From Kordia sp. (lineage in GTDB: Bacteria > Bacteroidota > Bacteroidia > Flavobacteriales > Flavobacteriaceae), in NCBI RefSeq assembly GCF_022447245.1, contig NZ_JAKVBC010000004.1, forward strand, positions 124,001 to 188,000: a stretch of DNA of 64,000 nucleotides, in the 5' to 3' direction. The notes beneath the pieces are model-generated. The model had not been told where the DNA came from and did not search any database. It saw only the letters and a program-made list of their open reading frames with translations. The position numbers and the translations under genes were made by a program. Positions 51,491 to 57,909 of the stretch are shown here, piece by piece. Numbering within the stretch: position 1 is the stretch's first letter; the number at the start of each line of letters is the position of its first letter.

Positions 51491-51781
51491 ATGAAAAAAA
51501 ACAAACGAAGTTTAAAAAAATTGACACTAAATAAGAAAGTAGTATCAAAATTAGAAGGACAACAAGCCAATGGAGGTACAGGAATTTTTACCGTAGTTGT
51601 TTGTCCTATTGAAACACGTTGGAATTGTCCTATTTTAACTATTAATTGTCCACGTACATTGGTTTGTCCTATTGATACTTTAGCATGTCCTATTGATACA
51701 ATTGCATGTCCTACTGATTCTATAGCATGTCCAACTGACTCTATAGCGTGTCCTACAGATACGATTGCGTGTCCTTTTTAA
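51491..51781 (+). CDS. RiPP-type precursor with Cys-Pro heptad repeat core
   Basis: The 96-residue peptide has a leader (MKKNKRSLKKLTLNKKVVSK ... GQQANGG, residues 1-29) typical of Bacteroidota class I lanthipeptide-like precursors, ending in a GG processing site. The core (30-96) has nine cysteines (38, 46, 53, 59, 66, 73, 80, 87, 94), every one followed by proline. From Cys59 on, the core is five copies of the heptad C-P-[I/T]-D-[S/T]-[L/I]-A. Ser/Thr in each unit could be dehydrated and ring-closed with Cys (inference). No lanthionine synthetase lies in the window. It is paired with the next gene. Confidence 0.75.
   Translation: MKKNKRSLKKLTLNKKVVSKLEGQQANGGTGIFTVVVCPIETRWNCPILTINCPRTLVCPIDTLACPIDTIACPTDSIACPTDSIACPTDTIACPF
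51665..51778 (+). repeat. 21-bp tandem repeat (5.4 units) inside the precursor gene
   Basis: Units start at 51665, 51686, 51707, 51728 and 51749, with a partial unit at 51770. Each encodes the C-P-x-D-x-x-A heptad. Units differ mainly at third codon positions and at I/T and S/T codons, so selection appears to keep the protein pattern. Confidence 0.85.
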
Positions 51782-51799: not shown

Positions 51800-52063
51800 A
51801 TGAAAAAAAATAAAAAGAGTTTAAAGAAGTTGACACTGAATAAGAATGTAGTATCAAATTTAGAAAAAAGCCAAGTAAATGGTGGAACTATTGTTACATT
51901 GGCTTGCCCAGTGACCTTATTTTGTCCAACACGTTTTTGTCCTACAAGATTTAATTGTCCAACACTGAATATTATTCAGTGTGGAACGATTAGAACAATT
52001 GATGGTCCTGGTTGTCAATCATTAGTAGACGGATGTCAATCTGCTTTAGGTTGTACATTCTAG
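51800..52063 (+). CDS. Second RiPP-type precursor, duplicated leader
   Basis: The 87-residue peptide starts 18 bp after the first. Its leader (MKKNKKSLKKLTLNKNVVSN ... SQVNGG) is nearly identical to that of the first, at DNA level too, showing a duplication. The core differs: TLACPVTLFCPTRFCPTRFN with four Cys-Pro units, then CGTIRTIDGPGCQ and a C-terminal SALGCTF. So the leader is conserved while the core has diverged, as expected for peptides handled by one shared enzyme. A terminator follows. Confidence 0.75.
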   Translation: MKKNKKSLKKLTLNKNVVSNLEKSQVNGGTIVTLACPVTLFCPTRFCPTRFNCPTLNIIQCGTIRTIDGPGCQSLVDGCQSALGCTF

Positions 52064-53122: not shown

Positions 53123-54037
53123 TTAATAGTCAATAGTTCCCAAATATATTCTAGATCTTCCTTGATTGTCATTTTGCACCCAAACTAATTGTGAGCCATC
53201 TGGTGAAAATTTTGCATGTTGCGCAGCAAAATTTCCATTACCTACTGGAATTATAGGAGTATTTCGATTTGATAAATCAACACTTTTTATAAAGATTTGA
53301 AGTTTTCCTTGACCAGACATTGCTTCAAAAGCCATTAACTGACCGTCATTGCAAAACCATGGTGCGCGCCCTATTGCACCTTCTGCAAGATCTGAAAATA
53401 CAAAAGGTGTATTATCACCTATTTGCATGCATATTTTATTATTATTTTGATTATATATGCCGCTAGACTCTGATTGCCCACCGTATGCGATAATTTCATC
53501 ATTTACAAGGTTTACTGTACCCATTCCTGACCAATATCCTTGATAGGTGAGTTCTTGCGACTGTAACGAATTGATATTAACTTTTAAAAGCTTTGGTTGA
53601 TTGTTTGTATAGTTTGTAACTAACAATGTGAGTCCATTTGCATACCATGTTGGATATGCAAGTTCTGCGTTTTCATAACCTGAAACTGTAAGTTGTTGTG
53701 CGCTATTGTCTGCGCCATTTTCAGTGAGCAGCATGATTCTATTGTGTGGTAAACTACTTTTTGGAAAAACGCCTGTAAAAGTTATTTGATTTGTGTTTTG
53801 CTCTGTGTTCAATGACCAGGAAGCTCTTGAGCAATTGTAATCATCACTTTTATATTATATGTTTTCCGTCTTTGTATTAATGTCTACTGTCCAAAATTCT
53901 TGTCTAGGAATTTCTTTCCCTGCACGTTCAAACAATACAGTATTTCCATCTGGGCTAAAACAAGGGCGCCCATCTATGTAGTGTTCGCTAGCAGTAACTC
54001 CAGTTTGAGTTATTGGATGAATATTAGTGACTTTCAT
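53123..54037 (-). pseudogene. TolB/PD40-like propeller protein gene with one in-frame stop
   Basis: A 305-codon frame runs from ATG 54037 (MKVTNIHPITQTGVTASEHY) to TAA 53123-53125. It is interrupted once by TAA at 53855-53857 in the context NTKTENI-stop-YKSDDYNCSRASW, after which the frame continues cleanly. CAA to TAA would be one C-to-T change. Blades show the TolB/WD40-like PD40 signature: RPCFSPDGNTVLFERAG, APWFCNDGQLMAFEAMSG, AKFSPDGSQLVWVQNDNQG. No signal peptide, so it may be cytosolic, unlike TolB. It follows the ThiF gene by 95 bp in the same direction. Confidence 0.75.
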
Positions 54038-54132
54038 AATATGGAGTGGTTGGTTATTCCAAATGTAGAAAGTACAACTGATTTGATATAGCGTGTTACT
54101 ACGTGATTATTTTTTAGTGTGATATTACTTTT

Positions 54133-54828
54133 TTACTTAAGCTCAAACACACGAAATACATTTTTGGAAAGATTAAAGACTTGCAACTTTCCTTGGAGAA
54201 CATTGGAAGCTTCTTGGAGAATTTTGACAACTTCATTTACTTGAAAACTGGAAGCCATCGTTACAATTTGCGGCATCACTCTTGAATCATTGCAATCTTC
54301 TGTTTGAAAGATGGTTTGATCATTTGTAAACGTATTTGCCATCGATTTTCCACCTTTGTAATTGAACACCGAAATATGACCTTCAGAAGCTTTTACACCT
54401 GTATATACCATAGGAACATTGTATTTGCTACAGAAAGCATCTATGACTAAACGAGCGGTATAATTATCGGTACAGTCTAAAACGATATCAGCCTCTTTTA
54501 GTAATTGATTACTGTTTTTGGAGGTTAAACGTTCTTTAAAAGTATTTATTTTCACTTCTTTAGTACGTGCTTGCAATTGTTCTTTTGCAACATTGCATTT
54601 GTACTTTCCAACCGAGTTCAAATCATATAAAATTTGACGTTGTAAATTTTTTTCCTCTACTCGATCATCATCAATAAGTGTCAGTCTTCCAACACCAAGC
54701 AATGCTAAAGATAGTAATGTTCCGCAACCCAAACCGCCACAACCAACTACAGCAATATGTGTTTGTTGTAATTTTTGTTTCAGTTCTTGTGATGCTTTGT
54801 TACTACAATTTGCTTCCGCTTCTATCAT
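54133..54828 (-). CDS. E1-like (ThiF/MoeB/HesA family) adenylyltransferase
   Basis: The 231-residue protein has the E1/ThiF Rossmann core: VVGCGGLGCGT (Gly29-Gly36 loop), LIDDDRVEEKNLQRQILY with Asp53, Asn61, Arg64 and Gln65, Lys77, and VLDCTDNYTAR (Asp118, Asp121), which bind ATP-Mg and the substrate C-terminus. Cys179 (TEDCNDSR) is a candidate thioester cysteine. The zinc-binding CxxC pairs of MoeB/ThiF are absent. It overlaps the DUF4132 gene by 4 bp. It likely activates the Gly-Gly end of the small protein two genes upstream. An alternative substrate is a precursor peptide (MccB-like). Confidence 0.9.
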   Translation of the reverse strand: MIEAEANCSNKASQELKQKLQQTHIAVVGCGGLGCGTLLSLALLGVGRLTLIDDDRVEEKNLQRQILYDLNSVGKYKCNVAKEQLQARTKEVKINTFKERLTSKNSNQLLKEADIVLDCTDNYTARLVIDAFCSKYNVPMVYTGVKASEGHISVFNYKGGKSMANTFTNDQTIFQTEDCNDSRVMPQIVTMASSFQVNEVVKILQEASNVLQGKLQVFNLSKNVFRVFELK

Positions 54829-57416
54829 TTTTTTATTTGACTTAGAATGGTTTTGTCGGTAATTTTATCATCTGCAGCCAATAAAAATGCTTTACTCAAT
54901 ACTAATGATAATCCACGATCGCCTTCAAAAGGCAAAAAGATATTGTTTGTATTTTTATCTTTCCCTCTCTCAGGAACAATACATAAATATTGATCGTTTG
55001 GTTCCATTAAAATATTGGAACTTCCTATGTGAATTTTGTAGGTGCGTTTTGTTCCTTTTACACGTAAAAACTTCCCATCAATTGTAGCAACTTTACTGAT
55101 TATTAATCGCGGCAAGAGTTTTTCTAAAATTTCCTTTCTCGTTTTTGCTAATTCATTCAAATTCCCAAAAGAATAGCTCGTCCAGTAATCAGTATATTGC
55201 GGTAATCCGCCATTATCTCTCCATTGCGGATCGTTTCCAACACTACATACACCTACAAATAAATCTACATCTCGTAAAATTTCAGATAATACTAGCTTCG
55301 GAACATCTAGCAAATCCATAACTTCTTGATCTTTTATAAATCGCACTTGATCAGTTGCCACATAATTCCATATTCCCGTATCATTATACTCATCTTCTGC
55401 ATTTAAAGTATTGATCCAAAATTGTGCTTCTATGTGATGTGCTTTTACGTGAATTTTTGCCACTCCTCCATCATATCCACCATCAAAAGCACCAATTAAC
55501 GCATATTTCCATCCGCGAACACCTGTCAATGCATTAAATTGATGTTGTTTCAGAATATGAGCTGCCATTCGATTGCTGTATGTTCTCGTATCAATTTCTG
55601 CATCTGTCAATATATACACCTCTCGATATGCTTGCTTTAGCGGTTGTTTGAGTTCAATGGTTTCTAGTTTTGTGCGCCAAAATAACACGCCTTCACTTGT
55701 TTCATAAATTGGATGCCATAAGCGAACTTCTGTTTCATCTATAATCCAATCTAATACGGTATCTTCTTGAGTTGTCCATTGATTGTTAAGATATAAAGCG
55801 GTAACAAAGGTATCTTCTTTTTTAAATTGCCATAAAAGTCTTTTTGCGATAAAACAAACTAAACCATGATTTAAATAATATTTTTTAAAATTTTCATACG
55901 TCCAAATACGATTTTCTAAGTATACACGATCTATTCTATCACGTTGTGCGGTGAGGTACTTTTTAATTTGTGTGACATCATTTTTTGCTTTCTTAAGTTT
56001 TGTTGTGTGTTTTACTGAACTTTTCACAAAAGATGGTGTCGTTTTTTGTGTTTTCCCATCAGCTTTTCTCCAAACCTGATTTATTTTCCCTAATTCCTGT
56101 ATGCTAATTTCAAGTGTATAATCATCGAATGCATAGGTCTTAGCTCCATTTTCCAATCCGAAAGTAGGAATAGAAAGCTCTTCAATTTCTGAAGAAGAAA
56201 TTCCCAATTTTATAGAGGCTTCTTCAATATATTTTTCAATCAGTTTTCGGGTATTATTTTGCTTGAATTTTAGCTTTAATCTTGACAAATGGCTAATTCC
56301 TTCCAACCCTTTGGTATTTGCTAATACGTAGATACATGCATTTCCAATTCCAGCTGCAGCAGGACCAACTCCTGGAATCTTTTTATAACAGCGTTCTGCA
56401 AGCTTCGCTATCAAGTTTAAAGTTACGGTGTCATGAAATTTTACTAAACTCCAAACCAAACCTTTAAGAAATATGGTACTTTTTTCTTGTACAAACTCAT
56501 GATGAGGATATTCATAAATTTGTCCAGCATACGTCTCTCGTATAACAGTTTCTATTTGCTTTAGTTGTATGACATGTTCCAACAAAGGATGTACAATAGC
56601 TTTGTATTTAATAATGCTTATTTTATCTATGATATTACTCGTGTTTTTAAGAAAACGTTGAGAAGGTTTGCTACTTGTTGCTTTGGTAAGAAGATGACAA
56701 AGTTCATAGAAATGATTGCGAAGATTTTCTTCCATGGCAATGATTTCTGGATTGAACATTTTACCAAATTGATCATCTATATGTGTATACGGAAGCGTTT
56801 TCCCTGTAGTGTTTTGACCCTCGAAAAGTAGATTTTTGAGTTTAGTTTCCACTTTGTCCAAATCAGCTCCAATATAATTATTTTTGATTTTCATAGCTGG
56901 AAAAGCTAGAAATTTTTCTATGTAAGCTTTCCATTCGGGAGATAGTCCATTTTTTTTGACACTTTTTTGAATTTGCTGCGCTGCAAACCCAATTGGCCAA
57001 TCCGAAAAATGGATACGATTTTTTTGAGTAGTTGAAGAATGTTCAAAGAAATCCATCAATTTAGCAAACTCTACAGGCGTATATTCAAGGTTGCTACGTA
57101 AGAGTGCAGTTAATAATTCACCACATATGTGCCGCTTATTACTTTCAATATTTGAGAGTGGTCTACTTGAACTTTTTTTTAATAAGAAAACTCTTTTTTC
57201 TGCTAAGTATTGAACAAATTCTTTCTTAAAAGTTGCTTCTTTGCTCTTTAATTCTTTATATGATTTCAACTTTGAGAATGAAATTGTATAGCTGTAACCT
57301 TCTAAAAAAACATCTTCTAAGATTTTTTTTAGCTGTGCTTCATATAAAGGATTTTCTATAGGTTTCTCTTCTTTTTTAGAACCAAATAAATTTTTTAGAC
57401 TGTCTGTTAATCCCAT
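54825..57416 (-). CDS. DUF4132-domain protein
   Basis: The 863-residue cytosolic protein has a helical N-terminal part with HEAT-like segments (LEYTPVEFAKLMDFFEHSST; KIPGVGPAAAGIGNACIYVL) and a DUF4132 domain at ~440-650. Its landmarks are QPLKQAYREVYILTDAEIDT (591-610), YSNRMAAHILKQHQF (613-627) and RGW (634). The C-terminal ~200 residues contain LSEILRDVDLFVGVCSVGND and end LSQIKK. DUF4132 proteins such as E. coli MolR/YehI have no settled function. Sitting between the Gly-Gly protein and the E1 gene, it may be the target, carrier or conjugation partner (inference). Confidence 0.85.
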   Translation of the reverse strand: MGLTDSLKNLFGSKKEEKPIENPLYEAQLKKILEDVFLEGYSYTISFSKLKSYKELKSKEATFKKEFVQYLAEKRVFLLKKSSSRPLSNIESNKRHICGELLTALLRSNLEYTPVEFAKLMDFFEHSSTTQKNRIHFSDWPIGFAAQQIQKSVKKNGLSPEWKAYIEKFLAFPAMKIKNNYIGADLDKVETKLKNLLFEGQNTTGKTLPYTHIDDQFGKMFNPEIIAMEENLRNHFYELCHLLTKATSSKPSQRFLKNTSNIIDKISIIKYKAIVHPLLEHVIQLKQIETVIRETYAGQIYEYPHHEFVQEKSTIFLKGLVWSLVKFHDTVTLNLIAKLAERCYKKIPGVGPAAAGIGNACIYVLANTKGLEGISHLSRLKLKFKQNNTRKLIEKYIEEASIKLGISSSEIEELSIPTFGLENGAKTYAFDDYTLEISIQELGKINQVWRKADGKTQKTTPSFVKSSVKHTTKLKKAKNDVTQIKKYLTAQRDRIDRVYLENRIWTYENFKKYYLNHGLVCFIAKRLLWQFKKEDTFVTALYLNNQWTTQEDTVLDWIIDETEVRLWHPIYETSEGVLFWRTKLETIELKQPLKQAYREVYILTDAEIDTRTYSNRMAAHILKQHQFNALTGVRGWKYALIGAFDGGYDGGVAKIHVKAHHIEAQFWINTLNAEDEYNDTGIWNYVATDQVRFIKDQEVMDLLDVPKLVLSEILRDVDLFVGVCSVGNDPQWRDNGGLPQYTDYWTSYSFGNLNELAKTRKEILEKLLPRLIISKVATIDGKFLRVKGTKRTYKIHIGSSNILMEPNDQYLCIVPERGKDKNTNNIFLPFEGDRGLSLVLSKAFLLAADDKITDKTILSQIKK

Positions 57417-57425
57417 AAAATAAAT

Positions 57426-57818
57426 TTATCCTCCTACTAAAGGTGTAAGTTTTACAAAACTAACCGTTGTTGCCCCTGTAACTAATACTTCTTGCTCTAA
57501 GCTTTCTGCTTGTTGATCGTCTACTAAAACAAGGTATCCATTTTGTTGAAATGCATTTAGCGCGATGAATGTTTGCTGTTCTGCATCTATTTTAGCACGA
57601 CTTTTTTTGAGTTTGTAACCATTGAGTGTTTGTTCTGATTCTGTTGGACGAATAAACCCTTTAAAATAGTCTGGAAGCTTGTTATTATAAGCTTCTACTT
57701 CTGAGGTAACTCTTGCCTCAATAATATCTTTTACTGTTACAATTTCGCTTTTAACAGCAATTTGTATTTGGCTGAGAATATCACCTGTAAATGACTGATC
57801 TTTAATAGTAATGGTCAT
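57426..57818 (-). CDS. Small protein ending in Gly-Gly, candidate ubiquitin-like modifier
   Basis: The 130-residue protein begins with a beta-strand-like MTITIKDQSFTGDILSQIQI and a conserved-looking middle (LPDYFKGFIRPTESEQTLNG). The C-terminal strand is VSFVKLTPLVGG, so the last two residues are Gly-Gly, the end used by ubiquitin-like and sulfur-carrier proteins. It is longer than MoaD/ThiS (~66-90 residues), with an N-terminal extension of about 50 residues. It is the first gene of a leftward operon followed 9 bp later by DUF4132 and then the E1-like gene. Fold assignment is inference from the C-terminus and context. Confidence 0.7.
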   Translation of the reverse strand: MTITIKDQSFTGDILSQIQIAVKSEIVTVKDIIEARVTSEVEAYNNKLPDYFKGFIRPTESEQTLNGYKLKKSRAKIDAEQQTFIALNAFQQNGYLVLVDDQQAESLEQEVLVTGATTVSFVKLTPLVGG

Positions 57819-57876: not shown

Positions 57877-57909
57877 AAAAACCTGCAACTATAGGAGTTA
57901 CAGGTTTTT
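57877..57909 (-). terminator. Intrinsic terminator after the OmpA-family gene
   Basis: AAAAACCTG-C-AACT (57877-57890) pairs with AGTT-A-CAGGTTTTT (57896-57909) with one mismatch, just after the stop at 57930 on the leftward strand. Confidence 0.75.

Follow-up and report, generated by a model that had tools for sequence, protein, structure and literature searches.

Organization of the locus

The window analyzed in this work is a stretch of 64,000 nucleotides from Kordia sp. (contig NZ_JAKVBC010000004.1, positions 124,001 to 188,000). It contains three tightly packed genes on the minus strand (Table 1), coding for a 130-amino acid (aa) protein, an 863-aa DUF4132-DUF7737 protein and a 231-aa E1-like enzyme. 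The small protein has KLTPLVGG as its last residues, directly followed by the stop; the DUF4132 open reading frame (ORF) starts 9 bp past this stop, and the E1 ORF overlaps the DUF4132 ORF by 4 bp. Gene coordinates, gap, overlap, Gly-Gly end and DUF4132 assignment had all been given in an initial annotation of the locus made from the sequence alone, and they hold after analysis of the ORFs and Pfam searches. Predicted structure and sequence comparisons point to an unrecognized ubiquitin-like system.

The order small gene-DUF4132-E1 is kept in all five other Kordia genomes containing the small gene, the small proteins being 75-92% and the E1s 70-81% identical; ten Kordia genomes besides that of the window were searched, and five of them lack the small gene. 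Since this order is kept in five Kordia genomes and the adjacency of the small gene and DUF4132 recurs across phyla, the three-gene run is not due to chance. A terminator-like hairpin separates the upstream OmpA-type gene from the small gene, which therefore probably starts its own transcript.

Table 1. Features of the Kordia module, in window coordinates.
Feature	Position	Strand	Evidence
Ubiquitin-fold protein (predicted), 130 aa	57426..57818	(-)	ORF, AlphaFold model, fold matches, homologue tails
Codons of terminal Gly129-Gly130, immediately 5' of stop	57429..57434	(-)	ORF; tail is coil in model
DUF4132-DUF7737 protein, 863 aa, partner of small protein	54825..57416	(-)	Pfam, gene pairing
N-terminal helical solenoid, residues about 21-412 of DUF4132 protein	56181..57356	(-)	
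DUF4132 domain, residues 454-636	55509..56057	(-)	PF13569, 7.4e-34
DUF7737 domain, residues 757-861	54834..55148	(-)	PF24879, 5.5e-39
Cys812 codon (YLCIVP) of DUF7737	54981..54983	(-)	Conserved with GG-ending partners
E1-like (ThiF/MoeB-type) adenylating enzyme (predicted), 231 aa, without rhodanese and CxxC	54133..54828	(-)	Pfam, NCBIfam, alignment
E1 Cys179 codon, aligned with conserved Cys of MoeB and ThiF	54292..54294	(-)	Alignment
Terminator-like hairpin between upstream OmpA-type gene and module	57877..57909	(-)	Consensus match only

A PD40 propeller gene had initially been included in the module. In the window, the ORF in question (53123..53812, minus strand) represents no more than the 3' portion of a gene (53123-54040, minus strand) that a stop interrupts; a second genome of the genus carries this gene whole, as a 304-aa frame (L011:7940-8854). 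Given this interruption, and with two of the five same-genus loci (L012 and L014) giving no match to the propeller, the latter was ruled out as a module member. Just past the module, on the opposite strand, two small Cys-containing ORFs (51491-51781 and 51800-52063, plus strand) have matches to lant_leader_L1a, a class I lanthipeptide leader family, and are, from their sequences, probable ribosomal peptide precursors.

The Gly-Gly protein and its DUF4132-DUF7737 partner

The AlphaFold model of the small protein (predicted local distance difference test score of 80) showed the beta-grasp strand order, a long helical insert and a coil C-terminal tail. Its structure matches were mostly ubiquitin, NEDD8, SUMO, ISG15 and MoaD, with weak to middling scores and with MoaD (5mpo) among the best. 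The small protein is thus predicted to have a ubiquitin-like beta-grasp fold, in agreement with the initial annotation, which had taken it for a ubiquitin-like protein (Ubl). Profile searches gave no Pfam family at E<=1 and no significant match to ThiS/MoaD (PF02597; hhalign probability 1.7). Two NCBIfam matches (E 0.007 and 0.044), far under the cut-off, were set aside, and no convincing sequence kinship with PDB entries was found for either the small protein or the DUF4132 protein.

A genome scan left 80 loci from many phyla, and the small protein of every one ends in Gly-Gly, with identity elsewhere in the sequence falling to about 40%; 66 of these 80 loci were used for building the A3 profile of the small protein. 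This end, whose conservation had been put forward initially as a check, is invariant in the close family, but the tail of a more distant clade is GxYW or a variant of it (see below). One Verrucomicrobiia locus (L079) contains two Gly-Gly ubiquitin-like frames, with tails FVPLVGG and LVPLVGG. No relative of the small protein was confirmed in viral contigs using a single-sequence query.

The small gene and DUF4132 were found in the identical 10 of 395 genomes of the phylum, and the spacing between them had a median of 1 bp (74 loci). Both the DUF4132 and DUF7737 Pfam domains were present in the window protein and in 40/40 aligned members. A4 used 39 of the 74 DUF4132 frames read. The DUF4132 protein is rich in invariant polar residues, and the structure matches listed for it covered mainly the solenoid. 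The conserved unit is formed by two genes, those for the Ubl and for DUF4132-DUF7737, and the best reading is that the small protein is dedicated to this partner. Co-occurrence of all three genes, put forward initially as a check, holds for the small gene and DUF4132 across phyla, but the E1 is linked to them in some Bacteroidota only. At one Hymenobacter locus (L047) at least two tandem DUF4132-DUF7737 genes follow a single small gene. The window DUF4132 protein (54825-57416) matches PHROG 20839 (function not assigned, 947 positions) at 1.8e-16; no DUF4132 match was obtained in phage records by tblastn.

Cys812 is the sole invariant cysteine in the aligned C-terminal 480 residues of the DUF4132 protein, being present in 71/71 ungapped proteins of the Gly-Gly clade. 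Counting DUF4132 frames and not genomes, this Cys was present in 78/78 readable Gly-Gly frames (in two of them, L081 and L100, the site reads VCIVP) and in none of 20 GxYW-type frames. Four broken or cut Gly-Gly frames (L061, L068, the second frame of L069, and L099) lack a recognizable Cys site. A further eight Cys-bearing and six Cys-less DUF4132 frames had no small gene inside the distance rule, but a small-protein frame is present in at least five of these Cys-less loci (L182, L188, L256, L257 and L259).

The GxYW-type frames belong to a second clade, observed in Flavobacteriales, in which the small proteins end in G-x-Y-W or variants and the DUF4132 partners are mostly 1650-1720 aa long. 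In the seven proteins of this clade first aligned, the position of Cys812 is occupied by Ser or Asn, and no E1 was found near their loci (0/7; 0/21 non-GG frames in a later count). The non-GG tails are mostly aromatic (GSYW, GTYW, GAYW, GSIW, GRLW, once GSYC and once GSYFYL, at L187, L246, L260, L209, L252, L253 and other loci). This aromatic tail must serve a purpose other than E1 activation. Since this clade keeps both genes without Gly-Gly, Cys812 or a nearby E1, the pair is able to work without Gly-Gly chemistry. The 21 non-GG frames include one exception, L244, in which Cys is kept and the small gene has a stop ahead of its last strand. Four Deinococcus pairs, sister to the non-GG clade on the tree, have a long partner yet retain both Gly-Gly and Cys, so partner length and Gly-Gly/Cys are separable. 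Most simply, the sequences suggest that Gly-Gly and Cys were lost together on one branch. Cys is also missing from an Acetobacter DUF4132 protein, whose 9.7-kb locus yielded no small gene.

The E1-like enzyme

The window E1 matched Pfam ThiF (PF00899) at 2.5e-58 and contained no rhodanese domain. Among solved E1s, MoeB and ThiF are nearest to it in sequence, and alignment with both E. coli proteins showed that GxGGLG, NLQRQ, DCTDN and Cys179 are retained, confirming the initial description of an E1 with a full ATP site and Cys179 and without CxxC. CxxC was likewise absent from all 12 operon-linked E1s, and Cys179 was present in 12/12. The NCBIfam MoeB/ThiF equivalog cut-off was not reached by the window E1 (best 170 bits vs 275).

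An E1 gene lies directly 3' of DUF4132 in 11 of 34 Bacteroidota Gly-Gly frames (the window itself, not counted, is one more case) and in 0 of 47 other Gly-Gly frames, many of them from Streptomyces. Operon E1s of this kind occur in Kordia, Dokdonia, Lacinutrix, Flavobacterium and one Cyclobacteriaceae genome. In a tree of 47 E1-like domains, which has long branches, those from Kordia, Dokdonia and Lacinutrix formed one clade (100/99), and those from Flavobacterium and the Cyclobacteriaceae genome were placed elsewhere; the E1 may thus have been recruited into the module more than once. Pfam analysis of five E1 operons, covering ten neighbouring genes, revealed no E2, JAB, rhodanese, thiamine, molybdopterin or sulfur gene, so the absence of such genes noted initially beside the Kordia module extends to these loci.

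The E1 content of the genomes was compared with the presence of an operon E1. ThiS/MoaD over cut-off was missing from 8/12 genomes with an operon E1 vs 0/9 without it (Fisher p 0.0046), and a further E1 at E<=1e-38 was missing from 5/12 vs 0/14 (Fisher p 0.012), counts that are not independent since six of the 12 operon-E1 genomes are Kordia. Rhodanese was present in 11 of the 12 non-operon E1s scanned, including that of the window genome; the one enzyme without it (L122) is short and comes from a genome with an operon E1 as well. The scan took 12 of 13 listed enzymes, L200 (236 aa, as L122) being left out. At E<=1e-38, any E1 was found in 277/395 genomes of the phylum, in 4/4 Gly-Gly and in 5/6 GxYW module genomes; because E1s are so widespread, their co-occurrence with the module in the phylum is uninformative. 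Most simply, the module would require an E1, borrowing one where possible and bringing its own elsewhere. In K. algicida and Lacinutrix the operon E1 is the sole one of its type and no ThiS/MoaD was found; these enzymes, having no other recognized substrate, offer a simple test case.

Proposed mechanism, alternatives and known systems

One pair of this family corresponds to genes already described. We assign the D. radiodurans pair L208 to DR_A0165 (SEP068184)-DR_A0166 from its gene order, a thioredoxin gene lying upstream and DUF4132 downstream. Its small protein has 134 aa, ends in LTALAGG and matches the A3 profile at 7.7e-16, and its partner is a DUF4132-DUF7737 protein with Cys, of the long type (1626 aa). 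At its N-terminus this long type has a large DUF5724 (PF18991, 4.1e-179), absent from the 863-aa type. A search of the 13-kb locus gave no convincing E1 match; modA, thiD, thiazole synthase, thiS and trxC lie in the same 13 kb. According to the published account, SEP068184 is raised by gamma rays and H2O2, its deletion leads to higher H2O2 survival, the tagged protein pulls down 157 proteins, thioredoxin DR_A0164 among them, and its predicted structure resembles MOCS2/MOCS2A and SAMP1 (PMC9650054). There it is described as Deinococcus-only, the terms ubiquitin and DUF4132 do not appear in the main text, and no DdrO-type motif is reported upstream. Contrary to this, DRA0165 is listed with a DdrO motif at -83 in a second report, in which tagged DRA0166 rises with mitomycin C in an IrrE-dependent manner (PMC8533742). 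The only member from which a stress-response role might be extended to the family, by analogy, is this Deinococcus one. New here are the wider family, the coupling between Gly-Gly and Cys812 and the E1 linkage, a combination not found in searches of an open-access library.

The best overall explanation, to which we assign a probability of about 0.5, would be an E1-activated Ubl dedicated to DUF4132-DUF7737, with passage by thioesters to a protein target as the preferred route. The 130-aa protein would act as a ubiquitin-fold carrier with its C-terminal Gly-Gly ready-made. We infer that this tail is adenylated by the E1-like enzyme, encoded in the operon in some Bacteroidota and elsewhere presumably a housekeeping MoeB-type E1 of the cell acting in trans. 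The activated tail would then be handed to the adjacent DUF4132-DUF7737 protein, most likely as a thioester on Cys179 of the E1 and later on Cys812, and the solenoid would bind the macromolecular target receiving the Ubl. Such a target is favoured by the solenoid together with the stress induction. The Cys812 relay on its own, as suggested by residue conservation, is a tentative step with the odds somewhat against it. Still more doubtful is the full extension of the proposal to an E2/JAB-free pathway in about ten phyla, in which DUF4132-DUF7737 would be a Cys812 transferase taking the Ubl from E1 to solenoid-bound targets and, in Deinococcus, would take part in the response to DNA damage and oxidative stress.

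Several observations favour sulfur transfer over an Ubl transferred to proteins. MoaD with MoaE and ThiS with ThiG are carrier-acceptor pairs. Similarly, the operon E1, or a MoeB-rhodanese protein in trans, could convert the Gly-Gly end into a thiocarboxylate, with DUF4132-DUF7737 as the acceptor enzyme and Cys812 involved in sulfur handling. The kinship of the E1 to MoeB and ThiF, the rhodanese on nearly all non-operon E1s of module genomes (11/12), and the lack of E2 and JAB near the loci (by Pfam in ten neighbours, and by eye in the 25 largest neighbour clusters from 57 loci) would all fit this possibility. So would the MoaD fold match, the tight coupling of two genes expected of a 1:1 complex, the dense invariant polar residues of the DUF4132 protein, and the MOCS2A and SAMP1 resemblance published for the Deinococcus member (PMC9650054). 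However, the operon E1 has no rhodanese, ThiS/MoaD is missing from most operon-E1 genomes, and a long helical solenoid would be odd on a small-molecule sulfurtransferase. In addition, thiamine, molybdopterin and sulfur genes were found neither beside the five E1 operons nor among the 25 largest neighbour clusters, though the D. radiodurans locus does contain modA and thiamine genes. We consider a sulfur carrier less likely than the preferred reading, but its main rival.

The GxYW clade would suit a small protein that is only a non-covalent ubiquitin-fold subunit of the DUF4132 protein, with a Gly-Gly end that escapes activation and has a structural or binding role; the pairing indeed holds whether an E1 is present or not. 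A tail of this kind would hardly explain an invariant Gly-Gly in a drifting protein, the joint absence of Gly-Gly and Cys812, or operon E1s occurring only where Gly-Gly is present and mostly where ThiS/MoaD is absent, which makes this option improbable. Even less credible is a fortuitous position of an E1 that adenylates another substrate. Most module loci have no adjoining E1 and the operon E1s are divergent, but the gene lies directly downstream in five groups, overlaps DUF4132 in the window, and codes for the sole E1 at E<=1e-38 in five operon-E1 genomes, where no ThiS/MoaD over cut-off could serve as substrate.

An E1-activated Ubl would provide a function hypothesis for DUF4132-DUF7737, a family hardly covered in the open-access literature (DUF4132 occurs in three papers, DUF7737 in none), and would join to it an orphan ubiquitin-fold protein across many phyla. 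The published Deinococcus stress pair could then be seen as a system of ubiquitin-like or sulfur-carrier type. The module was compared with known ones. Among the best 25 of 33 matches, those to the PADLOC E1-E2 and BilD systems cover only part of each profile, so a known phage-defence system was discarded. E. coli YehI shares the DUF4132 family but lacks DUF7737, for which reason it was dropped as a guide; its neighbour YehK has no Pfam match and no Gly-Gly end. The E1-E2-JAB operons outlined by Iyer et al. (2006; PMC1779556) likewise combine a small Ubl-fold protein and an E1-like enzyme in one operon, whereas the Kordia-type module has no E2 or JAB among the neighbours scanned. With MoaD/ThiS and MoeB/ThiF it shares the predicted beta-grasp fold, the C-terminal Gly-Gly and a ThiF/MoeB-type E1, but the small protein differs in having no Pfam ThiS match, a long helical insert and DUF4132 as partner. 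Finally, DR_A0165-DR_A0166 of Deinococcus is the same pair as that of Kordia, with Gly-Gly and Cys, and differs in its long DUF5724-bearing partner.
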